This document shows, piece after piece, positions 33,301 to 55,585 of a DNA stretch of 64,000 nt. Each line of letters begins with the position of its first letter. Within the stretch, counting starts at the first letter, position 1. Under the pieces are notes generated by a model that had not been told where the DNA came from, did not search any database, and was given only the letters and a program-made list of their open reading frames with translations. Origin of the DNA: Odiellus spinosus (taxonomy: Eukaryota; Arthropoda; Arachnida; Opiliones; Phalangiidae); contig OY987233.1 of NCBI GenBank assembly GCA_963920705.1, positions 10,713,459-10,777,458 on the forward strand, written 5' to 3'. The position numbers were made by a program, and so were the translations under genes.

Positions 33301-36300
33301 CTCCTTTGAAGTCTACTACTCTAATGTTCGATATAGCGCTCCTCTCTGTATTGGTAAAATTCACAATTTTAAGAGATCGGAGGGGTCCTACTTCATACCC
33401 CCTGTCTACGGAAAATTGGAAATTCTCTCTCTCCACAACGACGACGTTTTTTTGACGAACTCCAAGGCTGCTAGAGATATTTGCTCGACGAACTCCCGCT
33501 CCGAAAATATCTACCGTTAGGTGGCGTACGAATCGCGCTTTTTGAAACTAACCCATACAGAGAGGGGTAGACAAGACTAGGGAGTAATAGACTTCAAAGG
33601 AGGGTTTCATCGGCTTCTGTAAATATATAAATCGAATATCTTTTCCAACGCGCTCGCAAAATTAAGTCAAACGAAAACTCGCGCAAAGAAACTTTTCGTA
33701 AAAAATTTCAAAACACAAAGTCTATTGGTTTATTAACTGAAGGTTAAACTATAGCCTATTTTTTAAACAGCGCCTGAAAAAGCGTTGAAGTGGTCGCGCA
33801 ACCATGTTCTTGGAAGCAACCCACCGGGCGAAAATAAACTAATGCTTTTTCAATACGCCCCTGTAGAAATGTTTTACCTGCCGCACATTTATGTTCAGAG
33901 AGAAGAAATATTTGAAGGGGGTATTTCTTAAAAAAAATGCTGATTTAAAGAGAATTTAAAATAACACCAAAACCTTTTATAGAAGTCGAGTCCTAAAAGG
34001 TAATTTGGAAAATTGGTTAAGTTACGAGCTGATTTACCGCTATTTAAAAATGTATTTTGTAGGAAATATTTCATAGATTTATAAGAAATCGTAGGAGTAA
34101 TGTTTTTATTAATATAGGGCATATATATAATACCAAGAATCCATTCAGGTTCCATAAGAATATGAGAGGGCCGCGATTCAATAACCATCCTCCCAAACTT
34201 TGTAGCAAAAGTTCGTCTGCTTCGAATCGATTTTTCAAGTAAATCGCTCCTGAAATCTATTATTAACCCGCGCCACTAACGACCTTGACATAATATTTTG
34301 GGTACTAAAAATGGAGCCGACCGAAAAAAGATCTAAGCGTACAAATGTTGCGAAAATTGCAGACGAACTTTTGTTACAAAGTTTGGGAGGATGGTACCAG
34401 AGGCTAAAGCTATGCTCCCATATTCTTATGGAACCTGAATGGACTCTTGATAATACGTATTAATTTTGTTAATAGTCCTAGCTGCAATGGATCCTTTAAC
34501 AACCAATAGTAGCCGCAAAGAGGAAGCTAAGAATGAGAAGGAGAGAGATACATATAACTATAGTGTCAACATTATGTTTGGGTCGACATTCGATTTGTCC
34601 CGAGGCCAGCGTCGATAAACATCTCAAGAATGTCTATTGAGAAGGACGAAATTGAGAGGCCAAATGCGGAAAAGCAAACTAAAGAACGGGGACATACGGT
34701 CCAGGATAATTTCTATTACCACTTATAAACAAATAATATAAGAACTAAATATGAAATCCAAGAACGTACGTAAAAATATTCAAAACTGTAAAAAATATCT
34801 CTATACTCGAAAGTTTTTGGGCTTAATTTTCTTATAAAAGAAATGGGAGATTAATTAAATTATTCGCGGGAGTTCAAGGTTATAGATAACGTAATACTAA
34901 ACAATAAAAAACCCTTTTGTTAGAATTCAAAAGATTATTTCTAATAGTTGCGAAATTTATCGTAAATGAGGTTATCTAGAGATTATCCCAGATATGACAC
35001 ACTTATTGAGATCATTGATCATTGAAATGGCAAATTGACAATTACCCAACTCAAGGGGGGAAACTAGCCCAAACAAAAATTAACTAGCCCAAACAAAAAT
35101 TTGTTTTAACTCGACTTAATTGTATTTTATAAACTAAATATTAATTTAGAATCTCCTTAAATTAAATTTAAAATTAGAATTAAAAACAGCTTCAATAATA
35201 AATTAAATTAAAAATATAAAGATTAAGGAGTTAAAAAGGAACCCTTTTTTTGATTCGACAAGAGTGATTTTTGAAATTGAATTCACTAAAATTCTACCCA
35301 AGAACTCGAAATAAAATAAAATTCTAGACTCACCAGGAGATGTTTTGGAAGGAGTTAAGGGAATTTCCGTGGTAGCTGGAGGTGCTATGTTGGTGTTTAT
35401 TTCCGTTTCCGCTCCAGACGCTGGTTGTTGTTGTTCACCACCATTCCCCCCTTCCAAAGGGTTGACGTAACCGTGTCCTTCCAAGCTTTGACTTTTAGCA
35501 GTAGCACCGCTGACAAAAAGTAAAAGAAAAACAATGTGAACAACCACCCTTTCAAAGGAAAACCAAAAAAAAAAAAAAAAAAAATTGATATATAGATTGT
35601 CTATCTCTGTCTGTTGACCGAAATGCCACTCGAAATAGGATATATACTAGTCCGATTTGAAGGATAAGGAGTAAAAAGGTTTTTTCATCTTAACTTAAAG
35701 GATGGTGCAAAGAAAATTCGATTTTTAACTCAAAGGGAGGGTGAAGAAGAAAAAAAGTAATTTTAAACTGACTATGGATCGAAAAATAAGACAGATTTGT
35801 GTAGTAAAATATTCTGGAATTGTTCTTGTCTGAATTTCACAAAATAAAATAGACAAAGGATTGATTTCTTTTAATTTAATGGAACAATAATAAGGTTTTC
35901 TGTGTTTCATTTACGATTCAATTCATTTTTGAATCTTTTACTAAAAAAAATCAATTCCTTTTCCACTTCAACCTCTCTTTAAATAAAAATCAGAAGGTAA
36001 AATACTATCCCTTTTACTACTCAGGAATAAATTAAGCTATAATTTCATTAATGAAAGATACAAATATCTTTCACTTCCCCTTTTAAAGTAAGTATAACAT
36101 GTTAGGATGAAGGCCTAAAAAGGTTTTTGCGGCCATCAAATGTTACCAAAACACTCGCCTTCTAAAGTTTATCCAAAAATATTTGCCACGATATGCCATC
36201 TTACTTAGATAAATAAATAAATATACTTGTTGGAAGAGAGATAGGACTAGAACTTCACCAAGAACCAAGTTACGAAACCCGAGAACGTACAAATAAGGAT

Positions 36301-37906
36301 GTTCAACCAAGACCACGAGGTTTTGGCAACAGTTAAATTCCCTGATAGATATTTCCATTAATTTTAAGTTTACAAAAACATTGTAATATCTTTGCATGGT
36401 TGTAAATAGTTAAGTTTTCACCAATTTTTATTAATCCTACCTAATTACGTTCACTAATGCCGAGTAGTGAAGCAAAGGTAAATAATTTACAGTGCAATAA
36501 AAAACACGTCCATGTTGTCGTTTAATTTACCATAACACTGCAGGGGGCAAAAGTGTGGCACAATTGAGCAAAAACTAAAAATAACTAAAATGCAGTTCTG
36601 TAAAATATAGTTTATGAAAATTCTCAACAGAGGGCGATATAATCTTTATCTCTAGGGAGAAATTAAGAGTATAGGGAATATAATGAGGATCTGATAAGAT
36701 CCAATCAAATCTATCTTCCAACGTTCCTAGAGTTTCATAAATTTATTCTTGGTTTCAACTATCAGTCGAGAGCTTTCAGATATTTCTTGTTTTTTACCGA
36801 GAGGATATCGAAAAAAGATTCCATCATTTTTTCTACCACATCTCTAGTGTTTCTACAAAAACATACACATTCGTTGAAGGGTCCCTTGCTACGTCATCTG
36901 CCTTTCGCTACACTGACAATTACTCTAAACTCAACAAGCTCAATAAGCCTAAACAACATTTTATATATTTACCTATTTAATACCATTTTTCGATTATTAA
37001 ACTAGTTTGTTTATTTTTAAAACATAAATATCTTACCTAGTTGGTACTACAGGTGAAGATGCCTTTGCTCCATAGCTATCGGCCTTCTTTGATCTAGAAA
37101 TAAAAAAATAATAAAAATTAGTTTTGGAAACAAACTTTTTAGTTAAATACAGACAACATGGTCCCTAAAAAATATCCAAGATGCGCGAACATTTAAGCTA
37201 CGGTCACACATCGATTTTGAAAATCAAACCGGTTTTCGAATCGCCAGGAATCGATTTATCGTAGTCTTCATCTATCGGTTGTTGAAATCGAATCGGTACA
37301 AAACTGGTTCCCGAAGTATTTTCGAGATATCGAATCAAATAGATTCGAGAAAAGACGGTTTCCCGTTCGCACGACTCTAGGGAAACGTTTTGAAACGGTC
37401 TAAATCGATTTCAAGGCATAGTATGAACGTGGCTAAAGTCAGTTATGTTAGATTTAGCTAAAATAGTTCATAGCTTTTAGACATTTTTGATAAAATGTTG
37501 CTTTGTTGATTTGTCGTTACAAATCCCATTTCAACTAAAGCGCGCAATTAGCGATTTTTTTTAATGCTACTGAAATTCCATTTGAAACTCGTGAAAAATC
37601 CTGAGATCTTCACTTTAATTTACAAAAATAAAATTTTTAAATTCAAAAACCCAAAAATTACTTGAGTTTATTTGAAAAATTGCTCCAAAAATCCCAAACT
37701 GTTGTACCTCCGGTACTTGCCCGTTTACGGAACCAACTCTTAGTACAATCCAAACCCGAATCAGCCCGTTTGGTCAATAGAGGACCGAAAGACAAGGCCG
37801 AATCGGAACCACATCTCGTAATTATTTCAATTCGATCGTAATAATCAGAATCGGACGTAGAACTATCGTTAGAAACTTGACTCGAAAATATCGTCGAAGT
37901 AGACAT
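13142..37906 (-). CDS. OXR1: OXR1/NCOA7-type oxidation resistance protein (LysM-GRAM-like-TLDc), proximal first exon
   Basis: Sixteen coding exons: 37662-37906, 37037-37093, 35334-35509, 26144-26229, 18691-18798, 18512-18601, 18030-18269, 17775-17962, 16912-17714, 15038-15200, 14701-14962, 13960-14064, 13732-13884, 13559-13654, 13409-13482 and 13142-13280. They total 2985 nt, 994 aa, every junction in phase. Order: acidic/Ser-rich N-region starting MSTSTIFSSQ; LysM (TVEYV..TLNRIAARFDTTPSEL..GQTLYIP, about 184-229); GRAM-like block VKFLKINSKHITDGQGFVSG (from about 320); long low-complexity linker in the 803-nt exon; PLYLCLRMGHP and EYWFSIPRNKVDELYNFF; C-terminal TLDc domain (about 842-994: AEGYPWELIYSTSKNGFSLK, GTGESYLYTFHP, WTGENMYFIKGN, DGDLFHGRSNKCTTFGN). 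OXR1 proteins protect against oxidative damage, and TLDc domains interact with the V-ATPase. The gene is ancestral to vertebrate OXR1 and NCOA7; the fly orthologue is mustard. Confidence 0.95.
15265..15299. repeat. 35-bp A-run
   Basis: Uninterrupted A tract in the OXR1 intron between the 16912-17714 and 15038-15200 exons, close to the acceptor side. Length is likely to vary between individuals. Confidence 0.9.
15884..16160. mobile_element. MITE, family T copy 1 (inverted ends)
   Basis: The ends AAGTGTACGTGTCTGAA (from about 15,893) and TTCAGACACGTACACTTT (from about 16,136) are inverted. Inside, TTGGCTTCGTAAAATCC and GGATTTTACTAAGCCAA form a second inverted pair around GACACGCGTTG. No coding capacity. 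Related copies are near 19,017-19,430 and 42,290-42,350. It lies in an OXR1 intron. Confidence 0.75.
18331..18423. repeat. 31-bp tandem repeat, three units
   Basis: Three head-to-tail 31-bp units start AAATTGTGGGGGAG, AAATTGTGGGGGAG and AAATTGTTGGGAAG, each ending AGGGA(A/C)C. They lie in the 242-bp OXR1 intron between exons 18512-18601 and 18030-18269. Confidence 0.85.
19017..19430. mobile_element. Family T repeat, copy 2 (longer, diverged)
   Basis: It shares GGCTTCGTAAAATACCAGCG, GACACGCGCTG, TAATCAAGAATGA and GATTCAAAGAGT with copy 1, in the same order. It has an outer TGTACACTTCATGAATGTTT end near 19,410. It lies in the large OXR1 intron before the LysM exon. Confidence 0.6.
21141..22613. 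repeat. Long inverted repeat, arms about 435 bp
   Basis: The left arm (about 21,148-21,578) is the reverse complement of the right arm (about 22,177-22,608) along nearly its whole length, around a spacer of about 600 bp. Landmarks are GGCCTAACTTCACTTCTCC / GGAGAAGTGAAGTTAGGCC at the outside, GAGCGGGCGGGAACTCG / CGAGTTCCTGCCCGCTC at the inside, and the GCGCGTACGATATTGGCGA pair between. No transposase was found in the spacer. It lies in the 7.3-kb OXR1 intron, so the pre-mRNA could form a very long duplex. Confidence 0.9.
22606..22755. repeat. Foldback family FB, solo arm (copy 2)
   Basis: TTAAAGGGAGAATGCAGCC is followed by GATTTTTATCGATTCCTTAT and the TTAAATAAACCTAACCCAAC stretch, abutting the outer end of the long inverted repeat. 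No matching right arm follows. Confidence 0.7.
23310..23548. mobile_element. hAT-type MITE with perfect 8-bp target duplication
   Basis: A 239-bp element bounded by CAGGGACGGAAATAAG and its reverse complement CTTATTTCCGTCCCTG. It is flanked on both sides by the identical octamer ATCCCACC (23302-23309 and 23549-23556). The interior has several copies of TGTCCGATAA-like words in both orientations. CAGGG termini with 8-bp duplications are typical of hAT transposons. Confidence 0.92.
23675..23978. mobile_element. Foldback MITE with 7-8 bp target duplication
   Basis: The ends CACGGACCGTGTATATACCG and CGGTATATACACGGTCCGTG are inverted and continue into CGGACGAGAA / TTCTCGTCCG. Inner words ACAAGGTCATTT and AAATGACCTTGT also pair. 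GTTCTAT(C) flanks both sides (23668-23674 and 23979-23985). No coding capacity. It lies 119 bp from the hAT MITE in the same OXR1 intron. Confidence 0.85.
24655..24800. repeat. Dispersed repeat family G (inverted copy)
   Basis: It shares TTTATAATCGCCATTTTTGA, ACTATGGTCACGTGATT and CTACGTCATC with inverted copies near 40,140-40,330 and 41,020-41,160, and a short relic near 50,510-50,570. Each copy places a CACGTG E-box beside a TGACGT half-CRE. Confidence 0.65.
25115..25303. mobile_element. Short MITE-like inverted repeat
   Basis: CTTAAGCCTCGTTTTCA at the left and TGAAAACGAGGCTTAAG at the right form a 17-bp perfect inverted terminal repeat around 155 bp. Another right-type end (GTGAAAACGAGGCTTTAA) is found at about 25,433, so the structure may be compound. 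Confidence 0.6.
26357..26687. mobile_element. 331-bp MITE, family M copy 1
   Basis: The left end CAGAAGCCGATGAAACCCTC and right end GAGGGTTTCATCGGCTTC(A) are inverted, with an 8-bp duplication GCAACTAC (26349-26356 and 26688-26695). The interior is GC-richer than the intron and closely matches the element at 33284-33619. hAT-like by duplication length and CAG start. Confidence 0.88.
28245..28610. repeat. Foldback family FB, copy 3 (left end truncated)
   Basis: The arms TTATCGTTTAAATAGGCC..TTAGGCTTAGCTGGATTCAT and ATGAATTCAGCTAAGCCTA..ATTTAAACGATAAGGAATCG are inverted. The outer left TTAAAGGGAGAATG end is missing. Confidence 0.8.
29511..29770. mobile_element. MITE family Q, copy 1
   Basis: It starts AGCCACGTTCATACTAGGCC and contains CAACCGATAGATGAAG(C) and CGATTTATAAAGATAACGCG. 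An inverted copy is at 37197-37434, a partial one at about 39,709-39,852 and a fragment at 26,012-26,068. All are in OXR1 introns. Confidence 0.75.
30149..31790. repeat. Foldback family FB, copy 4, split by a 1.25-kb insertion
   Basis: The left arm (30,149-30,424) runs from TTTAAAGGGACAATGAAACC to a point in GATTTCTAG. The right arm resumes at about 31,680 (TTTAATATTTGTTCG) and ends TGCATTCTCCCTTTAA near 31,793. The roughly 1.25 kb between is unrelated, GC-richer DNA with no protein I recognise. It lies in the 9.1-kb OXR1 intron. Confidence 0.75.
32414..32861. repeat. 224-bp tandem duplication
   Basis: Two head-to-tail 224-bp copies (32414-32637 and 32638-32861) differ at about two positions (CCCCCC/CCCACC and TCCAC/TCTAC). 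This indicates a very recent duplication. Non-coding, in an OXR1 intron. Confidence 0.92.
33284..33619. mobile_element. 336-bp MITE, family M copy 2
   Basis: It starts CAGAAGTAGATGAAACCCTC and ends GAGGGTTTCATCGGCTTCTG, with a flanking TAAATAT duplication (33277-33283 and 33620-33626). The interior is inverted relative to copy 1 and contains CCCCCTGTCTACGGAAAATT and ACGACGACGTTTTTTTGACG. Confidence 0.88.
34133..34450. repeat. Inverted repeat, arms about 90 bp
   Basis: The left arm has CCATTCAGGTTCCATAAGAA and CCTCCCAAACTTTGTAGC. The right arm has GCTACAAAGTTTGGGAGG-like and TTCTTATGGAACCTGAATGG. The centre is near 34,290. Looks like another non-coding foldback in an OXR1 intron. Confidence 0.75.
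37197..37434. mobile_element. MITE family Q, copy 2 (inverted)
   Basis: It ends GTATGAACGTGGCT and begins AGCTACGGTCACACATCG, approximately inverted ends. The interior matches copy 1 at 29,511 in reverse. It lies between the first two OXR1 exons of the proximal isoform. Confidence 0.75.
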
Positions 37907-38472
37907 AATTTATGTTTTTAGATTAATCCCAGTGAATAATTTACATTCCCGTTTTGATACAGAAACGAAACTAATTTGAAGGGAAATAAAAACTGATTTG
38001 TTGAAGCTACGGATATAACGCGAGAACTGAAATAAGGCGATAATTGTGGTTGAACTTATAACACGAACAGATTGCAGATTCCCTCCCTACCGTAATCTGT
38101 GACGTTTACATCTACGCGATGCTTTAAAGGGATGATCAAGTAATTTCGGTTATAGATACGGTTTGGGTAAAAAAAATAAGCTTAAGCGTGGAAATAGAGG
38201 ATATGATGGAGGTTATAACTAATTAGGACCATGGGAGTTCAAAAGAAAAAAATCTACAAATAGCGGAAATTGGAGAAATTTAAAATTTACAAATTTTCGG
38301 TTAAAATTTCATAGGCTAGGTTAGGAACTTAGTAGCACTTATAATCTTTGATACGGGCAAGCAAATGGAAGATAAAACATATATTTGAGGCTAATTGTTG
38401 AAAAACTAGGGTTTAAGTTAAATTGAAGATTGAAATGAAGTGTTTTTACAGAGAAAAATTGCGTTATATTTC

Positions 38473-38580
38473 AAGGGAGAATGAATCCTAACAACAAGGC
38501 ATTTTTATCGAGTCCTTATCGTTTAAATAGATCTAATCCAACAGTAAACAAAATTCACAAACACACTATAATGAGTCAAA
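38473..38580. repeat. Foldback family FB, solo left arm (copy 5)
   Basis: AAGGGAGAATGAATCCTAAC is followed by TTATCGAGTCCTTATCGTTT and AATCCAACAGTAAACAAAAT. There is no partner arm. Confidence 0.75.
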
Positions 38581-38998
38581 ACGTCTCGTAAATAAAGAGC
38601 GTCATTTTCTCCAGATAAAAACAAAATTTCATCTAAGCCTTTGTCTTAAATAATAGTTTAATATATAAAGTATGTTTCTTTAACTCTTTATCATTCAATA
38701 AGACAAGTGTGTAACTTAAATGATAATCGACTTATGACAATATAATCGAGGTTCCAAAGTTGGTTCCACGTGATTAAGCCACAGCAACAGTGATTTTTTT
38801 TTTTTAAGGTAATCGTTAAAGATCAGAGATATAAAATCTAGACCGATATCTGACTAGACTTTTGCCCTAAAAATCTTGGAAAACAATGTGGAGAAATTTT
38901 CCAGAGAAGATTGAAATAAAATTGAAAACAATGTGGGTTAAATTTTTTTTTTTTTTACAAATACGAAACCATATTCATAATTGTTTCGTGTTGTTAAA

Positions 38999-39245
38999 TG
39001 ATCACCAATGTTTTCAGTCCAATTGATCGGGTTTTAAATGATCAACAAGGGATTTTGCGTCCAATTAATCAACTTTTAACTGATCAAAAAGGTGTTTTTC
39101 CAATTAATCAACTTTTAACTGATCAATAAGGTGTTTTCCCATTTAATCAACTTTTAACTGATCAACAAAATGTTTTCCCATTTAATCAACTTTTAACTGA
39201 TCAACAAGGTGTTTTCCCAAATTGATCGTCTTTGAAATGATAGCC
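38999..39245. repeat. Minisatellite, about six 39-bp units
   Basis: Units read TGATCAACAAGGTGTTTTCC followed by ATTTAATCAACTTTTAAC, with small variations and more diverged edge units. Each unit carries an inverted TGATCA/TTAATCAA pair. Confidence 0.85.
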
Positions 39246-39708
39246 AATGCCTTAGAAAAGGTTATAATTTTAACTAGATTAATTTCAAAAATTGCGAAAA
39301 AAAATTTTTTACGCCCCTGCTGGGTATTAATACGAAATTATCTTTCTAATTAGTAATCTTGAGTGTAATTATGTGGTAAATTTCTAGACAAGCGATAGAT
39401 TAAATCTAAAAGATTACGTGGAATTCGTTAAGTCAATTGATTGTCAGGGAAATAAAAAGAGGCCATTTTATTTATCGGGAATAAAACAAAAATCGTTCGA
39501 GAGTATTTTAGTTTGGTGGGTAAGCGTGGTAGAGAGGCCAATGATCTGTTAACACGTTTTCGCACTATAGAAAATGGACCATATGGAACTGAGCGCATCT
39601 ACATTTCCAATATTTTATAGAAGTAGTTCATATTCCCATCAAAATGAACGCAAATCTTAAATAAACACGCAAACCTGTGCTACTAGATTCGGCCAGCTTG
39701 TTCGTACC

Positions 39709-39852
39709 AAGCCTTGGAATCGATTTAAATCGTTTCAAAACTGTTTCGGGAACCAGATTCGTACCGATTCGGTTTCAACAACCGATAGATGAAGCTACGA
39801 TAAACCGATTTATAAAGATAACGCGTGAACACAGGCTTAAATGGATTCCTGG
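39709..39852. mobile_element. MITE family Q, partial copy
   Basis: It contains CTTGGAATCGATTTAAATCG, CAACCGATAGATGAAGC and GATAACGCGTGAACACAGG as in copy 1. It is interrupted after TGGATTCCTGG, where the next duplication begins. Confidence 0.65.
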
Positions 39853-39870
39853 TAAGCGGGTGAAGCAACC

Positions 39871-41160
39871 GAAGCACTTCCTTATTTTTAATTATAGACG
39901 ATTGCTCGTATACAGGTAAAAATAATAATACTGTATTTGGATGACAACAGCTGTTAGATGAATTCATAACGTGGGGGGGGGGGGGGGGGAAAGGTCATGG
40001 TTTCTACAAAATCATAATTTTTGATTTTAACTAATAGTTATAACCAGAGTCAAAATTGACGGTTTTTATTAAAGTGGCTCTGTCAACAAGACCGCGCGTA
40101 AGCGACCTTATTACTGGTAGCAGAACGTCCGAGAATCAACTATAGGTTCTATGATACAATAGCGAAATCACGTGACCATAGATGACGTGGTATTGCGGGG
40201 AATTTTAATTTAAAAAAATTCGAAAATGGCGATTATAAAATATGTATTTTTACTGTCACTGTAATTTTGTTCTAAGACATATATGTATGTATTTTTTGAA
40301 TTGCTTTTTAACGATCTTTCCGAAAATATGACTTAATTTCAATTTGGAGATCGTGAAAAATAGGTGAGAGCTTCACTTTAAGTGCTCGAAAACGAAAGAA
40401 AACCAAAACGTTTTAAGAAGCAATAGGAGTAAAGTTTAAGTACTCTACTCCTATGGGCAAACGGACGTCAATGCTATCTGAAGAATTCTACGTGTTTCTT
40501 TTGAAGTTTAAGTCGCGTGTGAGTTCTGAAGGACGTGAGTTGGCTATAGCAACAACTAGTTTAAACGCTTATTTAGAACTTATCTTAAGTCAACAAATGA
40601 TTCGCTTAAGTTCAAATTCCATATTAGTGTTAATAAATTCAAAAGCTCCGAATGGAAATTGAGTAGCATTTTTGGAAAGATCGTTAAAAACGAATTCAAA
40701 ATATATATATACATATGTCATTGATATTCGCGCTATTTATTTGAAGCACTTCGTTATTTTTAATTATAGACGATTGCTCGTATACAGGTAAAAATAATAA
40801 CACTGTATTTGGATGAAAACAGCTGTTAGATGCATTTATAACGTGCGGGGGGGGGTCCATAGTTTCTACGAAATCATAATTTTCTATTTTAACTACTAGT
40901 TATAACCAGAGTCTAAATTGACGGTTTTTATTAAAGTGGCGCTGTCAACAAGACAGCGCGTAAGCGACCTTAATACTGGTAGCCGCTGGTAGCAGAACGT
41001 CCGAGAATCAACCATAGGTTCTATAATACAATAGCGAAATCACGTGACCATAGATGACGTAGTATTGCAGGAAATTTTAATTTAAAAATTTCGAAAATGG
41101 CGATTATAAAATATGTATTTTTACTGCCACTGTAATTTTGTTCTAAGACATATGTATATA
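39871..41160. repeat. Direct duplication at 872-bp offset with poly(G) tracts
   Basis: A roughly 420-bp segment starting at CACTTCCTTATTTTTAATT (39,875) recurs at 40,747. Both copies carry GACGATTGCTCGTATACAGG, a G-tract after ATAACGTG, CCGCGCGTAAGCGACC-like and the family G block with CACGTGACCATAGATGACGT. The first copy's G-tract is 17 nt (39,973-39,989) and the second is shorter. Confidence 0.8.
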
Positions 41161-41164
41161 TCAG

Positions 41165-41260
41165 GGTTGCCATAATTTTTTCAGATTCAAATTCCCTGAT
41201 TTTTTAGGTTTTTCCCTGACCTTTTCCACCGATTTTCCCTGACCCTTTCGGCTAATATAC
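41165..41260. repeat. CAGGGTTGCCA-type transposon end
   Basis: It begins CAGGGTTGCCATAATTTTTT and contains three TTCCCTGA(TT/CC)-like words. Related AAATTCCCTGACC words cluster at about 52,610-52,790. The start and composition fit a hAT-type terminus, but no paired end or target duplication was found. Confidence 0.4.
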
Positions 41261-43207
41261 TACCCAATGTTTAACCTATTATTTTTTATATAATCGCGTT
41301 TTTTTTCATGATACTCTTGACCATTTGATTTTGCAATTAACGGTCCAAATGAATCGGACATGAAAAATTTCATTAAAATTGTTAAACACGAATGACCTCT
41401 TTTAGCAATTTGTTCATATTTAATCAAAAAGGTTTAAAATTATAAATTTGCATTTTTTGGTAATTTTACCAGAGGAAACGGTTAAATTACTATTACCCTG
41501 GTAATTTATCGCGTAAATTATTGATTTAGAGCTCTTAGTTTCATACCAATGACTCGCGAAGTCGAATTTTAGAAGCTAAAAGAGTTTAGTTAGTTGGTGA
41601 ACTCGGCAAAAGTTCGATACTGGTAAGAGTGAAAACTAACAAATCCCTTCAGAGTAGAAATCATCATTATATTCTACAAATAGCGATATACAGGCAGAGA
41701 GAGCGAAATAAAATGGAATAAAAAGGGATAATGAAATGATAACTTACTTTAATTTATTTTTTATCGTAAAATTTCGACAGAATTTGACCAAATAGATCAA
41801 ATTAAGCGAACCATTTGCTAAATTCGGGTTATTTAATTTGGTCTATTTAACCAAAATCTCTAGAAATGTTCCTATTTAGACCATTTTTAATCAAATTCGA
41901 TTTTTTTCCGTCATTTGTATAGCTCATTTCCACGCTTATTCTATTGGATCACGTTGAAATTAAAAGTTAACGAAGTTTTTCCAATTTCTGCAGATTAAAT
42001 TTGGGAACTTACATTTCATTATCACTTTGTATAGCTTTAAAGGTTTGGAATGGTTTGAGGAAAAAGAGCTTAAAGCAAAAGATCAACTTAATGGGGATAG
42101 AAGTATAAGTAGGCGATTTTATAATGGGAAGGAAAATGCCCTTAAAGAGATAGTAACACAAAAAAAAAAAAATCTGGGGAAAATAAAAAAAAAAAATTAA
42201 ACTAAAAACTTTTGTAAAATAATTTGCTTGACTATACGTAGAAATCAACCGTAATTATTTTGAGAATGCTAGGATGTCACTAGCTTCTCAGTCAAAGACT
42301 CCTATACCTTTGGCTTCGTTAAATATCCGCGACACGCGCTGTTGTAGGCGTGAAACTTAATTTTTATCCTCACCCTCCCTTTAAAGAAAAACGAGACTTA
42401 AATATAATAATTACGGTATTTAATTTTAAGTAGCAGCGCCTGCTAATAATTATTTTTCAGGTGTTTGATATAGATTTAGAATTGTGAAAGGATATTTAAT
42501 GAAACGTGTCACTTTCCCTTTGAACGTCGAGTTTTATAGTACATAGTGAAACTAGAAGGGGTTGGGTGTGGGAGAATAGAGGTCCACTGGGGCAGAGCGA
42601 GCTGTTGCTACCGGTACCCAAAACAAGTAATCGATTGGGGCCAAATTGCCAAGCTCGGAGAATAAACCGCCCGCCAAGTCGACTAAACAGCTCGCTGTAT
42701 CGCGTTAAGAGAGAAAGAGAGGTTGCCTTTACAGGGGAGAAGATACAAAAATTTCCTAACGCAGGATGATACATTTTATACATATATAGCTAGGTATAAA
42801 GAACCCAAAAAAAATAATATGAAGAGGTTATTGGGTTAACGAGATTAAATGGCATTTATTTCCAGCTCTATATGTCGTAAGTATCGTAAAAGTATGACCA
42901 GGAATTCATAAGTAAACGAATGTAGGAATATTGGTCTTATTGCCTCACTAAGACTCGTAGCCACAGAGTGAAACTTATACCTATTAATTAACTTATGCTG
43001 TATACCCTATAGACATTTTATAAAAAGTGTTTGCGGTCACGTGTTTAGAATTAAGAGGGGGAGATTTTGTAAGGTGTCTCTATATAAATATAATAAGCTA
43101 TCAATAGAAAAAAAAAGGTTCGGAGTTGTCTTCAAGAAAAATTGGATTTATCGTAATTTACAGCGATTTTCATCGTTATTAGTTATAACGCTGCCCCATG
43201 GCTACAT

Positions 43208-46200
43208 TTGGCGCGAAAAGAAAATTTGGGCGCGAATATAAAATATTGGCGCGAATATAAATTTTTTGGCGCGAATATAAATTTTTTGGCGCGAATATAA
43301 ATTTTTTGGCGCGAATATAAATTTTTTGGCGCGAATATAAAATTTTTGGCGCGAATATAAAATTTTTGGCGCGAATATAAAATATTGGCGCGAATATAAA
43401 ATATTGGCGCGAATATAAAATATTGGCGCGAATATAAAATATTGGCGCGAATATAAAATATTGGCGCGAATATAAAATATTGGCGCGAATATAAAATATT
43501 GGCGCGAATATAAAATATTGGCGCGAATATAAAATATTGGCGCGAATATAAAATATTGGCGCGAATATAAAATATTGGCGCGAATATAAAATATTGGCGC
43601 GAATATAAAATATTGGCGCGAATATAAAATATTGGCGCGAATATAAAATATTGGCGCGAATATAAAATATTGGCGCGAATATAAAATATTGGCGCGAATA
43701 TAAAATATTGGCGCGAATATAAAATATTGGCGCGAATATAAAATATTGGCGCGAATATAAAATATTGGCGCGAATATAAAATATTGGCGCGAATATAAAA
43801 TATTGGCGCGAATATAAAATATTGGCGCGAATATAAAATATTGGCGCGAATATAAAATATTGGCGCGAATATAAAATATTGGCGCGAATATAAAATATTG
43901 GCGCGAATATAAAATATTGGCGCGAATATAAAATATTGGCGCGAATATAAAATATTGGCGCGAATATAAAATATTGGCGCGAATATAAAATATTGGCGCG
44001 AATATAAAATATTGGCGCGAATATAAAATATTGGCGCGAATATAAAATATTGGCGCGAATATAAAATATTGGCGCGAATATAAAATATTGGCGCGAATAT
44101 AAAATATTGGCGCGAATATAAAATATTGGCGCGAATATAAAATATTGGCGCGAATATAAAATATTGGCGCGAATATAAAATATTGGCGCGAATATAAAAT
44201 ATTGGCGCGAATATAAAATATTGGCGCGAATATAAAATATTGGCGCGAATATAAAATATTGGCGCGAATATAAAATATTGGCGCGAATATAAAATATTGG
44301 CGCGAATATAAAATATTGGCGCGAATATAAAATATTGGCGCGAATATAAAATATTGGCGCGAATATAAAATATTGGCGCGAATATAAAATATTGGCGCGA
44401 ATATAAAATATTGGCGCGAATATAAAATATTGGCGCGAATATAAAATATTGGCGCGAATATAAAATATTGGCGCGAATATAAAATATTGGCGCGAATATA
44501 AAATATTGGCGCGAATATAAAATATTGGCGCGAATATAAAATATTGGCGCGAATATAAAATATTGGCGCGAATATAAAATATTGGCGCGAATATAAAATA
44601 TTGGCGCGAATATAAAATATTGGCGCGAATATAAAATATTGGCGCGAATATAAAATATTGGCGCGAATATAAAATATTGGCGCGAATATAAAATATTGGC
44701 GCGAATATAAAATATTGGCGCGAATATAAAATATTGGCGCGAATATAAAATATTGGCGCGAATATAAAATATTGGCGCGAATATAAAATATTGGCGCGAA
44801 TATAAAATATTGGCGCGAATATAAAATATTGGCGCGAATATAAAATATTGGCGCGAATATAAAATATTGGCGCGAATATAAAATATTGGCGCGAATATAA
44901 AATATTGGCGCGAATATAAAATATTGGCGCGAATATAAAATATTGGCGCGAATATAAAATATTGGCGCGAATATAAAATATTGGCGCGAATATAAAATAT
45001 TGGCGCGAATATAAAATATTGGCGCGAATATAAAATATTGGCGCGAATATAAAATATTGGCGCGAATATAAAATATTGGCGCGAATATAAAATATTGGCG
45101 CGAATATAAAATATTGGCGCGAATATAAAATATTGGCGCGAATATAAAATATTGGCGCGAATATAAAATATTGGCGCGAATATAAAATATTGGCGCGAAT
45201 ATAAAATATTGGCGCGAATATAAAATATTGGCGCGAATATAAAATATTGGCGCGAATATAAAATATTGGCGCGAATATAAAATATTGGCGCGAATATAAA
45301 ATATTGGCGCGAATATAAAATATTGGCGCGAATATAAAATATTGGCGCGAATATAAAATATTGGCGCGAATATAAAATATTGGCGCGAATATAAAATATT
45401 GGCGCGAATATAAAATATTGGCGCGAATATAAAATATTGGCGCGAATATAAAATTTTGGCGCGAATATAAAATTTTGGCGCGAATATAAAATTTTGGCGC
45501 GAATATAAAATTTTGGCGCGAATATAAAATTTTGGCGCGAATATAAAATTTTGGCGCGAATATAAAATATTGGCGCGAATATAAAATATTGGCGCGAATA
45601 TAAAATATTGGCGCGAATATAAAATATTGGCGCGAATATAAAATATTGGCGCGAATATAAAATTTTGGGGCGAATATAAAATTTTGGGGCGAATATAAAA
45701 TTTTGGGGCGAATATAAAATTTTGGGGCGAATATAAAATTTTGGGGCGAATATAAAATTTTGGGGCGAATATAAATTTTTGGGACGAATATAAATTTTTG
45801 GGACGAATATAAATTTTTGGGACGAATATAAATTTTTGGGACGAATATAAATTTTTGGGACGAATATAAATTTTTGGGACGAATATAAATTTTTGGGACG
45901 AATATAAATTTTTGGGACGAATATAAATTTTTGGGACGAATATAAATTTTTGGGACGAATATAAATTTTTGGGACGAATATAAAATTTTTGGCGCGAATA
46001 TAAAAATTTGGCGCGAATATAAAAATTTGGGGCGAACATAAAAATTTGGCGCGAATATAAAAATTTGGCGCGAATATAAAAATTTGGCGCGAATATAAAA
46101 ATTTGGCGCGATTATAAAAATTTGGCGCGATTATAAAATTTTGACGCGATTATAAAATTTTGACGCGATTATAAAATTTTGACGCGATTATAAAATTTTG

Positions 46201-46312
46201 ACGCGATTATAAAATTTTGACGCGATTATAAAATTTTGACGCGATTATAAAATTTTGGCGCGATTATAAAATTTTGGCGCGAATATAAAAATTTGGCGCG
46301 AATATAAAAACA
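43208..46312. repeat. Satellite of about 160 units of 19 bp, each with an E2F-type core
   Basis: The core unit is GGCGCGAATATAAAATATT, repeated almost without change from about 43,382 to 45,445 (about 108 units). Flanking blocks use variants in runs: ..AATTTTTT units on the left; ..AAATTTT, GGGGCG, GGGACG (about 11 units) and GATTATAAAATTTTGACGCG (about 8 units) on the right. This is the layering expected from repeated local expansions. TTGGCGCG on one strand and TTCGCGCC on the other both fit the E2F consensus TTSSCGCS. Units also give about two CpGs each in an AT-rich region. Because 19 bp is not a multiple of 3 and one frame lacks stops, a spurious 945-codon frame crosses it on the minus strand. 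It lies in the first intron of the distal OXR1 isoform. Confidence 0.97.
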
Positions 46313-46614
46313 GCCTGAAATCGAGTCGATTTAATCTTTAAACGTGGTGTTTATATTTGATAGGAGTTCTAACATAAAGAAGATATTAAAGGAGATGTTT
46401 AAGTAATGAAAGAGGGTGATGTAACCACAAACACTAACAATACTTGTTTTCTTAGCACTACTTCACGAAAGCTGAATCGACCGGTTACAAGTCCAATTTC
46501 CTTTGGGCTATTACCATAAACAATTTCGCGAGAGCGGTATGAAAAATCCTCATTTAATAGGGGTCGTATTTATTTCACCACGAGCTAGAATGCCTTTTTC
46601 ATTTTGATTATTAT

Positions 46615-46616
<2 letters not shown>

Positions 46617-46647
<31 letters not shown>
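46617..46647. repeat. 31-bp T-run
   Basis: Uninterrupted T tract 300 bp beyond the satellite. Around it (46,313-47,900) I see only AT-rich sequence without coding or repeat structure. Confidence 0.9.
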
Positions 46648-46648
<1 letters not shown>

Positions 46649-47916
46649 ATAAAAAGAAGCCCAAAGAAAGGCAATAAGCCGTGAAATAAACGTTCTCCCT
46701 CTTTCTACCATCATCCCTCCCAATTTTTCCTCTCCACTAATGGAGAAATGAAGCCATTTGGTAATGGGTTATGGGAGAAAGATTTGAAAACACGTTGACT
46801 ATACTAAAAACAAATCAGGGAAGTATTAAGGGGGGCAACAGTCTAAAGGTGGGGCATTGTTAATTACGTTCCAGAAATAAACTACGTCATAGCTCGGAAA
46901 AAATACCAATATATTTGTGACACTTTCTCATTGACAGCCTCAATTAAAAAGCTTATCAAACGAATATAAAAAATATTTCAATTCTATAGGCCTAACGGAC
47001 GATTGGCATTAATAGATAAAAACGAACGTGATTATTATTTGTTTTTTGTTTCTTAGTAAGAAGAAAAAACAATTTCTCCAATCAACAGACAACAATCAAC
47101 TGTATTCACTCTAGAAATTATTAATTGGGTAAATATTTTCATCATAGTTCCGCAGTTCCCCGAAAAACAATCATATTCGTAAACAAGAAATAAAAACAAG
47201 CGTAAAGTACATAATTGGGAAAGCTTACGCGGAGTGATACGTTGTATTAAATTCCATATTTAGAAAAAAGTTCAGAATTATTTCGACTAGCTACGATACG
47301 AGAGTATCTCGAAAATTATCACGAACTCGATAATTTCATGGTTGAAGTATCCAAAAACAAAAATTCAGGGTCAAAGGTCAATACATATTTTTGAGGACAA
47401 AATAAAATAAATTTTTATATTTGTTGAAAGCGAGGCTCTCATGGAGTTTTCTTATTGAGCTAATATCACTTACTACTAAAATTTATCTACTATATCAAGT
47501 ACTATTATTATTAACAATGGAAATAACCTAAGCTAGCGTTCCTTCATAAGCGTACTCTAACGGCCGAAACAGTTTTAGAATTAAGTTCAAAATTAATTTG
47601 GCGAGTTAAATATGGTTTTTCCAACACTACCAATTAATTAAAATAACACTATCTTCATTATCTCTTTATACAACTCTTTTTGGGCAAAGGAACATATTTT
47701 AAAAGTGCAGCGATAGAAGATTTCTCGATAAGTAATGGCCTCATTAAAATAATCAAGATATAATCTAAAAAAACATCATATCCCGTTAGTAGAAAAATAG
47801 AAGATAATATATCATCTGTTGAACAACAAACATAAAATTTAGGGTCCTGAAAAAAAAATAACTTTTAGGGCAGAATCGTTCAAAAATGAATTGATTTTCA
47901 TCTTCAAACTCCCTCC

Positions 47917-48325
47917 TTAAAGGTAGAATGCAACCTAAAAACCGAGTGATTTTTTTATCGATTCCTTATCGTTTAAATCGGTTGAAATAGGCCTAATCCA
48001 CCCATATTAAACTAGAAATAAATTTAAAACTTACCAGGAAAATAGGCTTAGCTGGATTCATTGAGGTATCTTGAACTTCTCATTTAAGGTCTAGTGACCA
48101 ATAAGCAAAGGCGTGTCGATCACGCAATCGATTCGACTGGTCGCTTGACCTTATACGAGAGGAAATTCAGTTGATATTCATGAATCCAGCTAAGCTACGG
48201 GTAAGTATTAAATTTATTTCTAGTTTAATATTTATTAATAATTTGTTTATTGTTGGATTAGGCCTATTTAAACGATAAGGAATCGATAAAGAATCACTTG
48301 TAGTTAGGTTTCATTCTCCCTTTAA
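47917..48325. repeat. Foldback family FB, copy 6 (complete, TTAA both ends)
   Basis: TTAAAGGTAGAATGCAACC at the left and GTTTCATTCTCCCTTTAA at the right form long inverted arms. The internal arm words are AATAGGCTTAGCTGGATTCA and ATGAATCCAGCTAAGC. TTAA flanks at 47,917-47,920 and 48,322-48,325. Confidence 0.88.
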
Positions 48326-48559
48326 TAGAATTGACTGAATTTATTGGAAGGGATAGTTACTGTGGGTATAAAAGGAACAAGAATCATAATTTTATTAGGA
48401 ACATATATGTAACACTATGAATAAACCTTAGTTAAAAGACAAAGATAAAATACGAAGATCGACACATCATGATAGAGACAGATATTAATGTCCAGCGGAA
48501 AGAATAAATCCTTCCTGGATTTCTGAACGAAAGCGTTTTTTGAAGAGAAAGTAACACTT

Positions 48560-48976
48560 TTAAAGAGATAATGTAACCTAACCAGTGATATTTTATCTAT
48601 TCCTTATAGTTTAAATTACACCTAATCCAACAGAAAACAAAATTACCAAACAATTATTAAACTAGAAATAAATTTACAAACAACATCAAAATAGGCTTAG
48701 CTGGATTCATGGAGATCCTGAATTTCTTCGCGTTGAAGGGTCAGCAACCAATCGAATGTTATACAGGAAGTCTCACGGAGATCTCGCCTTAACGATACTC
48801 CTTTACTCATTAAATCGAAGAAATTCAAGATCTCCATGAATCCAGCTAAGCTTATTTTTCGGGTTTTTAATTTATTTCTAGTTTAATATTTGTTTGGTAA
48901 TTTTTACTGATGGATTAGGCCTATTTAAATCGATAAGGAATCGATAAAAAACTTAATGGTTGCATTCTCCCTTTAA
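48560..48976. repeat. Foldback family FB, copy 7 (complete)
   Basis: TTAAAGAGATAATGTAACC ... GGTTGCATTCTCCCTTTAA, with inner GGCTTAGCTGGATTCATGGA and TCCATGAATCCAGCTAAGC arms. It lies only 235 bp from copy 6. Confidence 0.88.
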
Positions 48977-49224
48977 CAAGGGGTTGAACAAGTCAGTGAA
49001 GAGATTAAGAGAAAGAAATGAAGCAACAATATTTCAAAAGGTGAGGTTTGAGGGGAATTCACGTACAGCGTGTATATCTTTACGTATATGAACTTACGAA
49101 GATTCATTCTTTAGGGGTTTATAGGGACATTAAAATAAATGTCTTGCAGGCTAGTATCCTCCACGGGTCCCCCATCAATAGGGATGACAAAGAGTTCTCG
49201 AAAGAAAGATGGGAATGGAGTTAC

Positions 49225-49243
49225 GGGGGGGGGGGGGGGGGGG
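49225..49243. repeat. 19-bp G-run
   Basis: Uninterrupted G tract capable of quadruplex formation, in non-coding DNA. Neighbouring sequence (49,180-49,340) is GC-richer but shows no recognisable gene. Confidence 0.9.
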
Positions 49244-49339
49244 TGTCTATCTTGGCGACTGGTTGCCGCCGAGGCGCCATGACTCGATCGAGACTGTCAA
49301 CAGTAGTTAAGGTCAAATACGAGGTCGAAGTCTGATTTA

Positions 49340-52300
49340 TAAACCATCCCCATGTACATCTCCGTAACAAAATAGAGGAACACTTCGATAAAATCTATAA
49401 CCTTTTACAGATTTCCATGATCGTTTCAAATTAATTTAAATGATCAATTATTTCTTACTTATACATCAATATATTACTGAACAAAATGAAGCCTGGAGGA
49501 AATTTGAAAGCCCTATTTGCTGATAAAACAATACCGTAAGAAAAAAGTTCCTTCCCCCTTTAATATATCCAAAAATAGAGGTTAAAGGTCAAGGTTTTAT
49601 CCCCGGAGTTATTTAAAATCGTTTCTTAAAGAAAAAGGGATACCAACGAATCATAATTTTACTTTGGGAGAATCTACAGTTTCTCGAGCGTTCTGGCACG
49701 AGTGATAAGATCACTTTCGCGCGGTACTTAATACAGAACGTCTTACAATATTTCGTATGAAAATTAGCGTTAATTAGGTCATATATCGGTAAGCATGACG
49801 GGTAATAAAAAAAAGGCCTATCTTTAAAATTATTCAAAGAATCAAACGTATTGCATCTTTAAACCTGACAAGGATAGGAGTCTTACTAAAACAGGATGCA
49901 TTGATTGGTTAACACCTCCCCTCGTTGGAGAATTACTCTTATTATCATTATTCAAACGAAGGGAAAAAAATGTGATAAAGTTATGGCGAAGTGATATACG
50001 CTGTTAAATTCCACAACGAAATAACTAGTACTCAAGCCAAAAATATTCCATCTACAGTCTTCAACACACTAAAAGCTAGGCTACGCATTATCTTACTTAA
50101 AAGACATATGTAGCCTAGTTCAAAGCGAGTCAGAGTGTGTTGCCAACGCAAAGTGGAATTCGCAATCTTCTCGTAAATAAAAAGAATGATGTTCTTGGAT
50201 TTAGTTGGCAATGTCAACTATAAATAAATTAGGCTTAGCTATTCCAAAATATCTCCAACTACACGTACAATAATGAAAAGGCTTACAATTGTATAAAAAT
50301 GACATATTGTTAACTTCAATATGAAATTGTCAAACATATATAGATCATTTTTATTCTGATAAATGATTTAGTTTATTTATGGAACTTAATTAACCATAAT
50401 TTTCATACCAATGGTAATGGCCTTAATCTGGATTAAGTACTTATACGAAAAAGACGGCGCGAAAGAGACCATTTCACAGGTTCCAGAACGCTAAAGAAGG
50501 CTCTAAAAGAGCAAAATCACGTGACCATAGTGATGACGTATTACGGATAATTTTGTTTTATGAATTACATTTAATTAAAACACCTAAAATTTCATTTTTT
50601 TTCTTAAGAAACCTTTCCTTTAGCATCCAAATTAAACTATCCCCAAGCTTTCGCTATAATATACACGAATTTGATGGTATGTTTCGCCATAAAAATAGCA
50701 GTACAGTTTCTTGGAAAAAGATTAAAGATTAATGGTCTCTTTTAGGTCGTAATTCTTTCTATTTCTGAGAAAATTCATCGCTAGCGAGTGTAATTTGACC
50801 AGACTTTCTTAAGAAATAGCATATACAAGTCGGGATAAAACAAGTAGGTATAAAAGATTATCAAAAGTAAAGAAAAAATTAATATTTCCATTCTAAACTA
50901 CAATCGTTACAGTAAAATATTATCACCAAGCAAATAAGTTATAAAATAGATGAGAAAAAACTTCAGCCCGCTTTCTTTTAAAAGAAAAATACCTTACGTT
51001 ATAAGGTCGTGAATTTTATTGCCTTTGAAGGAAAAATAACCAGGTCTTATCTTTCAACCACACATTTGCTATTTAAGAGAAACAAGGCAGAAAGGGCTGA
51101 ACTTTAACGGAGAGGAAAAATGAAGTAACCTAAGTTTATAGTTAAAGTGAGGCTGCTATCATTTAGTGCATAGAGTGAGGAAAAACTATCTCTCTTCTCT
51201 CTGCGCCCGCATACACGAGACGCTGACACTACTCGGTGTAGACATTATCCTAGACTTTAACAGTGCAACCACAACCAAAATTTAGGAAAATTTCTTATTT
51301 TCCTAGATTTATAGGAAATTATAAATATTAAAGGCCTAGGATTTTTTCTGCCTGTTTCACTGGAAGTGGGCTCACCTTCCGGACTTCCCCTTGGGAAACA
51401 AGGCAAGGGGAAGCTTAGAGGGAGAGTTTGTTTCCAGGGTGACAGGCAGAAGAAATTCTAGGCCTTTAAACAGAACATTCTTTCTAGAAAATTTAATTAA
51501 AAAAATGATTTTTCTATTCACAAATTTTCAGCTTCAAAATTTCACGGTAAAATAGGAATTGTGATCACCCGGCTTTAGTTCTATTATTTTTAAAGGTTGT
51601 TCGAACCTAATTTCCATCAAAAACAACTTTATTAGAAGTTACAACGTACTAGAACTTGGCTAAAGAAAAAAAATAAAAATAAAATGGCAAAAATCTGACT
51701 AAAAAAAAGGAGAAATATGAAAAAATAAATGTGGGCTGAAATTTGGTAATTCGTGGAAAGATGGAATTTAAGAACTGAAGAGAAAAGGCAGAGGTTAATA
51801 TAATAAGCCAAAAGGGGATAGAGGCTGAGAGAGAATCAAATTCCAGTAAAAGGAGTTAATTTATTGCACGCACGATATAATTAAAACGACATATCCCACA
51901 AATATCCGACCTGTCCTCCATAAAAAAAACCAAAATAATGTAATCAGAAGCATATAATAAGAGCATTTATACTACAGGTTGTGGATAACTTTCATTTTGA
52001 TTATACTTATGCAATAAATAAAGTTTTGGTGAGACTTCACCTTCAAAATTTCTAAATAATGAGAAGCAAACGAATTACGAATGATTCACTATTTTACATA
52101 TTATAATTTAACATGAAATAATTAAGGAGAATTAGATGACTTGAGATTGAAAGATGTGGTAAAAAGTTAAGGAATTCTGTTAGTTTTACTTTTTAAATTA
52201 TGGAGGAATATTAACTTTTCAAAAAGGGTAAAAACTAGATAGGTTGTAAATGTCATGGTAAGATTCGTGAAATTCCTTAACAGACTGTGTAGAATACACC

Positions 52301-53754
52301 CTAGAGTTTTCTTGACATTTACAGGAGTTCCAAAAATGTTTTTTTTTTTTTTTTTTTTTTTTTAGGGGTACTGGGGAAGTAAAGAAGTTTTACAAGAATT
52401 CATGTATAAATAAATAAAATTTGTCTGTGGGCTTTAGTCTATGAGAGGGTGATAATAAATAGGAGAGTCTTATTTTTCTTAGGCGAAACCAAGGCAATAA
52501 AATATATATATTTTTTTGCCACTCCCGTTCGCAATGTCAATTAATGAGAGCCAATAAGATATTTATAAAGTTCTGTTAGAGGTTCATTTTCCTTTGACCT
52601 ATTATTTTAAAATTCCCTGATTTCGCACAAGCTTTTTAGGATAATTTTCAAAGATAATTTTAAATTCCCTGACCTTTCCAAGACCGATTAATCCTATTTT
52701 CAAATTCCCTGACCTATTAGCCAAATATACGAAATAAATTGTGCGAATTCAAATAGTATTCAGCCCATTTTTATAATCCCTGAACTTTCTACTTACTCCG
52801 CGACATGTTTCCACAATATTTAAAAATAATAAAAACTCAGATGTATGTATGACCCCCAAATTTTGACCATTCTAAGGTCATCCACTAACTTTGCCAATGT
52901 TAAGGTTGCATAGCATTTTCCATAATTGGGTGGCTAAAATTGAGAACTAGTATTGGATGCGTTTCATGAGCTTACCAAATGAAAATCTCCATTAGAGATA
53001 TCTTAATTAAAATCACGTAGAAAGAGATACACCCACTATCCAAAGGCATGGTCACAAGTTAAAAAATATCCAGAGGGGGTGCAAAATAATTTCAATTAAT
53101 CGCTAATACTGCCCAAGGAGGGGCAAATATCCCATAGAAAGAAAGTTAATATTCAACCAAATGAAGTCTTTCAATAGTAAACGTAAGAGCATTTAACAGA
53201 TCCAATTCAGATTCTAAGTTGGGTCTTATCATTAAGCAAACAATCCTATAGTTTCACGCAGATACCAACATATGGAACCTATAACAGTCTCAAGACCAAG
53301 GCTATAATTTAAGATCTTATCTAATATAAGCCTTAAAAGTAGAAATAATAATCCTACTAAAAGGCAGATAAGATAATAATACAAATTTCTTAACTAATAT
53401 CGTAGGAAAGAGACTAATTTATCGCAAACCTCCTTAATAAACAGTCGAAAGGTTGGTTTTCAACAATGAGAAAAACTATAGTTTGATTAAATATACTCCT
53501 ACAATACAACGCGTGTTAATTCAATGAGCTAAAGATTTTGTAACCTCAAAATATATTATCCGTTATTATTCACAATACTCAAAATAAATTCTAGATTCAT
53601 TGACACCCGTCTCAATGGCAGGTGTTTTTATAAAATGATTGAAAAGATACGCGTCATCGAAGCCATTACTTACAAACACGCCGCGATTTTTATGAAAACA
53701 TTCATTGTCACTTGATTAATTTTCGTTAGATAAAAAGATAAATGCTCTACTTAC
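49340..53754. other. Intronic DNA without recognised genes
   Basis: AT-rich sequence inside the first intron of the distal OXR1 isoform. It contains a 147-bp hairpin (51,330-51,477), a 25-bp T-run (52,339-52,363), a family G relic (about 50,510-50,570) and TTCCCTGA-rich repeat debris (about 52,610-52,790). No conserved coding exon was found on either strand. Confidence 0.6.
51330..51477. repeat. 147-bp near-complete hairpin
   Basis: AAAGGCCTAGGATTTTTTCT pairs with AGAAATTCTAGGCCTTT. The pairing continues inward through CTGCCTGT/ACAGGCAG, TTCACTGGAA/TTCCAGGGTGA and TTCCCCTTG/CAAGGGGAA. It could be a small MITE or the template of a hairpin RNA. Confidence 0.7.
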
Positions 53755-53819
53755 TGCCAAGATAATCCAATGCCATGTAGTCGATCCCTGAGTGATGGTT
53801 GACGAGTTGGAGCTGACAT
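53755..53819 (-). CDS. OXR1: OXR1 distal alternative first coding exon
   Basis: An ATG at 53,819 opens 21 codons, MSAPTRQPSLRDRLHGIGLS then W, followed by CA and a strong donor GTAAGT. It leaves phase 2, exactly what the OXR1 exon at 37,037-37,093 requires; the proximal first exon also leaves phase 2. The joined junction reads GLSWQSKKADS, resembling the N-terminus of a long human OXR1 isoform (LSWLKKKSQS). The protein from this start would be 934 aa. The gene would then span 13,142-53,819 with a 16.7-kb first intron. Splicing is inferred from phase, donor strength and the junction similarity. Confidence 0.75.
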
Positions 53820-54561
53820 ATCTTCCGCTGGTCAAGAACACTTTCCGATCCCAGCGGATGAAATTAAGGGTCACCGCCCAAATTAAAAGATAGCGTCGCG
53901 CATTTGTTAATTTGCGATTGATAATTTGTCACTACGACCGAATAATAATCGTTTAACTCCAACGCGTACCTATGAGGGAGAGAAAAAATGTTCGCCTATA
54001 AATTTCAAGGCGAACGAACTGGCTCGCTTACATTATTAGGGAAATTAAAGGCCTAGGACTAAAACGTCAAAATCGTTTTTCAAACAGATGCCATGCATTA
54101 TTGCATTGACACGGGGCGTAACGAAGCGTTTATTTAAAAGTATACATCTACCGAGACCTAATTTTTATAATGATTTCGATTTCGATAGATTTAATGATTT
54201 AAAACGGGTCAAAACACACCCTCTTTTACCAACTAACTTCAATAAGCCAAAACCGTTAACACTACTAAACTAGCCCGTCTCCGCATCCGAAAGACAAGGC
54301 TTAAGATTCTAAACCGCACGGCTTCTCGCGAATAAAACTTGGAAACCTATAAGAACGTAATTATTATTAAGAAATGGATACTTACAAAACCGATAACTCA
54401 TTAAAATGAGCTTTCAATGATAATTGTATCGTTTTTCGTTAATTGATCGCGCAATTATTTTATGACACTATTTTTAAAGTCATTCTTCGCCGATCCGATC
54501 GAAATCTAAACGCGTTTTAACTCTCCACTGGCCTCTCAGCTGTCTGGCCAATAAGCCGAAC

Positions 54562-54570
54562 ACTTCCGGT
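54562..54570 (-). promoter_or_regulatory. ETS/GABP-type site ACCGGAAGT
   Basis: ACTTCCGGT on the plus strand, the exact complement of the site at 54,741-54,749. It lies 743 bp upstream of the distal OXR1 ATG and beside a CCAAT box. Confidence 0.45.
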
Positions 54571-54740
54571 TGGTCCAAGCATTTTTTTTTTTTTTTTTGC
54601 TTTTTCTGTTCAATATTTGTAATCCTTTTGCCATCTGGCGTGAAGAAATAAAACCTTAAGCATTAAAATAAATTTAAACGATATTAAAAGTAATTTTAAA
54701 ATTAAATAAATCACTTCGTATTTAATTATGGAGTAATTAA

Positions 54741-54749
54741 ACCGGAAGT
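54741..54749 (+). promoter_or_regulatory. ETS/GABP-type site ACCGGAAGT
   Basis: A perfect ACCGGAAGT in AT-rich sequence, 179 bp from the inverted copy. Confidence 0.4.
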
Positions 54750-55546: not shown

Positions 55547-55552
55547 TTTATT
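55547..55552 (-). terminator. Poly(A) signal of the SLC6 gene
   Basis: AATAAA on the minus strand, 34 nt beyond the stop codon of the transporter gene. Confidence 0.7.
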
Positions 55553-55585
55553 ACAAAAAACCAAGGCTTAATTAATTTAACAATT

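Follow-up and report, generated by a model that had tools for sequence, protein, structure and literature searches.

How did a tandem array in which most units carry an E2F-type site come to stand in the genome of the harvestman Odiellus spinosus, and does it stand alone? The array lies in a stretch of 64,000 nucleotides (C11:10713459-10777458), hereafter called the window. The birth of minisatellites and the reason for their shared cores form an old question, and arrays sharing the putative binding site of a conserved regulator offer a candidate protein that might seed or keep them. The reading that we favor, with a probability of about one half, is that the window array is a locus-private minisatellite grown from an E2F/DP-type site and belongs to a set of arrays that share the core TTTGGCGSGAAA and were seeded or kept at such sites.

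Composition and surroundings of the window array

The array is a minisatellite of head-to-tail units, its period falling within the usual range of about 10-60 bp. TRF places it at 43208-46309, with a period of 19 bp and 162.9 copies, and a unit-by-unit split yields 163 tandem units (Table 1), of which 154 measure 19 bp, eight 20 bp and one 18 bp. The 19-bp array of the original prediction is thereby borne out by both procedures, and the approximately 108 unchanged consecutive units claimed for it correspond to a single run of 109 identical ones. The block order obtained from the split also agrees with the claim that core changes occur in runs within the side blocks. The core TTGGCGCGAA is intact in 135 of the 163 units, whereas the remaining 28 read TTGGGACGAA (n = 11), TTGGGGCGAA (n = 7), TTGACGCGAT (n = 6), TTGGCGCGAT (n = 3) or TTGGGCGCGAA (n = 1); with this number of changed units, the core is not strictly kept within the array. 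The TTTGGCGCGAAA copy at the left edge is a possible relic of the founding site.

Table 1 Features of the window array and the nearest recognized gene (positions within the window)
Feature	Position	Strand	Description	Basis
Whole minisatellite	43208..46311	+	163 units, main period 19 bp	TRF and split
Left edge	43207..43218	+	sole TTTGGCGCGAAA copy, within the 18-bp unit, matches TTTSSCGC on both strands	
Seven 20-bp units	43226..43365	+	extra G in core of first	split
109 identical 19-bp units	43366..45436	+	one run, TTGGCGCGAATATAAAATA	split
12 intact-core units	45437..45664	+	two spacer types, runs of 6, 5 and 1	split
17 changed-core units	45665..45988	+	TTGGGGCGAA x6, then TTGGGACGAA x11	split
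Mixed right end, 17 units	45989..46311	+	TTGGCGCGAA x7, TTGGGGCGAA x1, TTGGCGCGAT x3, TTGACGCGAT x6	split
Nearest recognized gene, SLC6-type transporter	57289..61488	-	exons 57289-57510, 57514-57702, 61252-61488	Pfam

In its loose form, the E2F consensus reads TTSSCGSSAA. Across the window this pattern matches 137 times, against a mean of 1.01 in shuffled sequences, and 135 of these matches fall inside the array; 135 of the 163 units fit it. The strict form TTTSSCGC, as given in an excerpt of PMC2891812, fits only 23 of the units because the main block reads ATTGGCGCGAAT, without the outer T and A. Thus, the original prediction of about 160 E2F sites holds for the number of units (163) and fails for the number of sites, which is 135 by the loose and 23 by the strict consensus; the array taken by itself fits the former only. 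Support for the E2F label comes from outside the array, namely from recurrence of the core in unrelated repeats, from the outer T and A found elsewhere and from E2F/DP-like exons in the genome.

The array had also been placed inside a gene intron. Since six-frame Pfam scans of both flanks were without a match (none in 33208..43207 and none above the cut-off in 46308..55811, where a weak match, YxzE, reached 19.7 bits and the cut-off is 40), this placement is unsupported: no above-cut-off Pfam exon lies within ~9.5 kb on either side, although exons without domains could escape such scans. The nearest Pfam exon of the SLC6 family gene (57289-57510) is about 11 kb from the array, and further exons of this gene were recognized by eye down to about 55.6 kb. 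Its coding end is adjoined by a 26-bp minisatellite of 8.2 copies that lacks the E2F core (window 56015-56226). Further left in the window are a RIO1 domain, a TPH-domain protein and a piece of a calcineurin-like phosphoesterase, as well as a 224-bp tandem duplication with two copies at 99% identity (window 32414-32863).

On the minus strand, each of the three reading frames runs open across the array for 969-988 aa (window 43179-46149). A coding array was considered and rejected, given that the main unit is simply stop-free in this direction and that the right-end variants (TTGACGCGATTATAA) bring stops; an RNA gene was rejected as well, with no Rfam match at the gathering score within the window. 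Outside the array, the observed/expected ratio of CpG is 1.19-1.21, with no sign of CpG loss, and a methylated CpG domain was discarded on this ground. As this ratio is 1.19 outside, the retention of CpG in the array region is unremarkable. The roles put forward in the original prediction, namely E2F titration, an enhancer or a CpG domain, are conjectural.

A private unit and a recurrent core

Genome-wide searches, covering 443 Mb in 286 contigs, point in different directions for the unit and for its core. The 15-mer TTGGCGCGAATATAA has 141 copies in the genome, 134 of which fall by count within the window array, and hence the unit does not form a genome-wide satellite family; around one of the seven copies outside the array (L028, C3:17.59 Mb), TRF found no core-bearing array. 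The exact dimer of the unit occurs 114 times in the genome, which equals the number counted in the array, and the 100 matches listed are all inside it. An outside origin was rejected on searches of collections without animal genomes as such, in which the dimer pattern had no match in viral_contigs and genome_contigs, and the array had none in plasmids.

The core, on the other hand, recurs. Paired TTGGCGCGAA, with the usual spacer of the window excluded, gave 282 + 147 matches genome-wide; the 100 matches listed reach C2:4.09 Mb and define at least eight places, where the distances between cores are 25, 29, 13, 21, 28, 20, 19 and 26 bp. A sub-pattern, with 68 + 92 matches and a backwards control of 0 + 0, added six places among the 100 matches listed (C7, three on C11, C12 and C13), one of those on C11 having a second, inverted array. 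Paired TTGGCGGGAA gave 272 + 313 matches and at least 22 places among the 100 matches listed, which reach C3:24.25 Mb; two couples among these 22 places look like mutual copies. The search patterns covered core distances of about 13-44 bp, and within these limits TTGGCGCGAA or TTGGCGGGAA was closely repeated at a minimum of 36 places among the matches listed (C1:30.853 counted once, the window included), 16 of which consist of one match only, that is, a single core pair, and the others of several. The spacers differ from place to place, and what these repeats share is a short core within otherwise different units. The original prediction had regarded a satellite present genome-wide with no conservation of its core as evidence against it; what was seen is close to the reverse, a private unit with a recurrent core.

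Besides the window array, the largest member of the set comprises 84.2 copies of a 26-bp unit (TRF). Together, the loci with 2-4 copies (L032-L034) and the arrays of 84 and 163 units suggest a growth series. In a separate observation at L030 (C11:20514500-20518500), two 22-bp E2F-core arrays, separated by about 0.7 kb, run in opposite orientation, one keeping TTGGCGCGAA in 18 of 19 units and the other (L030b) reading ATGGCGCGAA in 14 of 17.

Places with the core are unevenly spread along C1: all 19 among the matches listed lie at 22.9-35.3 Mb of 35.43 Mb, with none in the first 22.9 Mb. A broader contrast among chromosome regions may underlie this clustering, three of the four wholly satellite stretches described below lying at 1 Mb of their contigs.

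Chance expectation and the shape of the core

An ordinary neutral minisatellite in a satellite-rich genome, with a CG-rich 10-mer that resembles an E2F site by chance, would account for some of these data. Satellite DNA is plentiful, 4 of 13 10-kb stretches set at round positions being wholly satellite (L035, L039 and L043, at 1 Mb of C4, C5 and C6, and L047, at 9 Mb of C8, with units of 14, 23, 383 and 18 bp, respectively). The density sample, 150.9 kb from which wholly satellite stretches are excluded, holds 24 minisatellites (period 10-60, 677 unit bases), none of which contains TTSSCGSSAA. That the window array retains extended runs of changed cores also fits neutrality, as does the fact that the core read backwards forms at least one large array. 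The backwards core of TTGGCGCGAA gave 167 + 94 matches, and the 100 of these 261 that are listed correspond to a single compound array at C2:21.70 Mb. This array of the backwards core AAGCGCGGTT spans C2:21.698-21.700 Mb and combines units of 16, 18 and 19 bp. The lists run in contig order, and none of the 100 matches listed for the backwards core falls within the 57 Mb made up of C1 and of C2 up to 21.698 Mb, in which TTGGCGGGAA occupies at least 21 places. Backwards TTGGCGGGAA gave 111 + 14 matches.

Two results, however, weigh against chance resemblance. The first is that the E2F forms outnumber, in places, both the backwards core and a blind model based on minisatellite density, base composition and a CpG factor. 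For TTGGCGCGAA, the model expects 0.16 arrays in 39.5 Mb versus at least eight places among the matches listed (seven multi-copy), and for TTGGCGGGAA 0.32 arrays in 94 Mb versus at least 22 (ten multi-copy), under the assumption that the frequency of single sites follows from composition; E2F single sites commoner than that may shrink the excess, with a several-fold excess left if they were ten times commoner.

The second is the unforced extension of the core. Without being demanded by the search pattern, a T precedes the GGCGGG core at 18 of 21 loci (p = 8e-7) and an A follows it at 17 of 21 (p = 1e-5). A preceding T is also present in 14 of 15 GGCGCG loci, the window array being the exception, whereas the A after the GGCGCG core is partly forced by the patterns and was found in 6 of the 8 loci where only T was excluded. 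In these counts, one look-alike couple was entered once and the other twice, and C1:30.85 belongs to both sets. From the recurrence of T and A around the core it follows that the shared element is TTTGGCGSGAAA. The shared core of most other loci fits the strict TTTSSCGC, unlike that of the window array, and its letters mark it as the E2F consensus, not as some arbitrary 10-mer. Overall, we regard the neutral account with a fortuitous E2F-like core as rather unlikely.

Variation inside the arrays bears on another possibility, that selection keeps them as clusters of E2F sites, serving as putative regulatory elements or as E2F sinks; if they did act as sinks, E2F dosage would be affected. Variants that keep the consensus would agree with this: in L020, 12 of the 32 units read TTGCCGCGAA, in L021 11 of the 17 units read TTGGCGGGAA, and L029 mixes TTCGCGGGAA and TTGGCGGGAA, both within TTSSCGSSAA. 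Such mixtures speak for the favored reading as well. Dilution of E2F by amplified sites has, moreover, been proposed for plants, according to an excerpt of PMC12595863. Yet at the four flexible C/G positions of the core, 7 of 14 variant types keep C/G, compared with 4 of 20 at C/G positions of the spacer (p = 0.07), a difference no more than suggestive. The window array goes the opposite way, its 28 changed cores standing in runs. Considering also that the window array has no recognized gene for about 9.5 kb around it, selection for site clusters appears unlikely. Variant types number 25 over 120 positions in the core versus 61 over 143 in the spacer, as counted in 12 arrays (L023 and L032-L034 left out, and only five units of L024 included), but this difference is not used as main evidence because the arrays were chosen by intact core pairs and are biased accordingly.

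Origin of the shared core

If the set was not assembled by chance, the core could have been inherited rather than have recurred, a transposable element or an old repeat having spread an E2F site whose copies later became tandem. For the transposon-amplified E2F sites of Brassicaceae, this route has a precedent (Henaff et al. 2014, as cited in the excerpted PMC12595863). We compared the flanks of 13 loci and the window, and some dispersed repeats are indeed common to certain flanks, mostly away from the arrays: the flanks of L027 and L031 share about 350 bp at 92%, and at L026 the left flank, to the very edge of the array, matches those of L021 and L027. In addition, the two 13-bp arrays, L022 and L031, have an identical unit. 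However, no flank element is common to the whole set of 13 loci and the window, and the spacers differ and do not line up, and common descent of the core appears unlikely.

Recurrence of the E2F core hints at a role of such sites in starting or keeping tandem repeats. In the scenario of seeding or keeping, the window array would have grown as a segment with an E2F/DP-type site was duplicated in tandem again and again, and it would belong to a set of repeats with their own spacers and periods that have only TTTGGCGSGAAA in common. An E2F/DP-containing complex, or a replication or recombination activity, might render the sites prone to duplication or favor arrays that keep the core, and the core would then work like that of Jeffreys-type minisatellites. 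Long arrays such as that of the window probably evolve for the most part by neutral drift and might bind E2F weakly as a by-product. More tentatively, a site bound by E2F/DP (with Rb or DREAM) could itself be the instability signal, at which replication or recombination activity creates duplications and thereby an E2F-core class of minisatellites concentrated in part of a chromosome, as in the last 12.5 of 35.4 Mb of C1. The window array itself, with its 28 changed cores and mostly lacking the outer T and A, counts against seeding or keeping at E2F/DP-type sites. The 16 single core pairs among the 36 places also count against it, as does the reach of the backwards control, which locates 100 of its 261 matches.

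Precedents exist for parts of this scenario. Minisatellites at many loci that have differing units and a short shared core are described in PMC3909909; the repeats reported here resemble these Jeffreys-type minisatellites in each of these respects and differ in that their core agrees with a known transcription factor's consensus and that they are known from one assembly. With Brassicaceae, they share the presence of many extra E2F-type sites in one genome, mostly far from genes and possibly diluting E2F (PMC12595863, excerpt), whereas the copies in the present case form tandem arrays with differing units and have no common transposon in the flanks compared. The p107 promoter likewise has E2F consensus sites (TTTSSCGC) side by side (PMC2891812, excerpt), but there are two of them, compared to 163 units with no recognized gene nearby in the window. 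Minisatellites with an E2F core were not reported in the literature searched.

Exons resembling those of E2F, DP and E2F7/8 genes are present in the genome. Five matches to PF02319 (E2F/DP domain) exceed the Pfam cut-off; three of them are interrupted by stops, perhaps where the translation runs through introns. Judged by eye, L009 and L011 are E2F-like exons and L012 is DP-like, whereas L010 and L013, about 2 kb apart, look like the pair of DNA-binding domains in an E2F7/8 gene.
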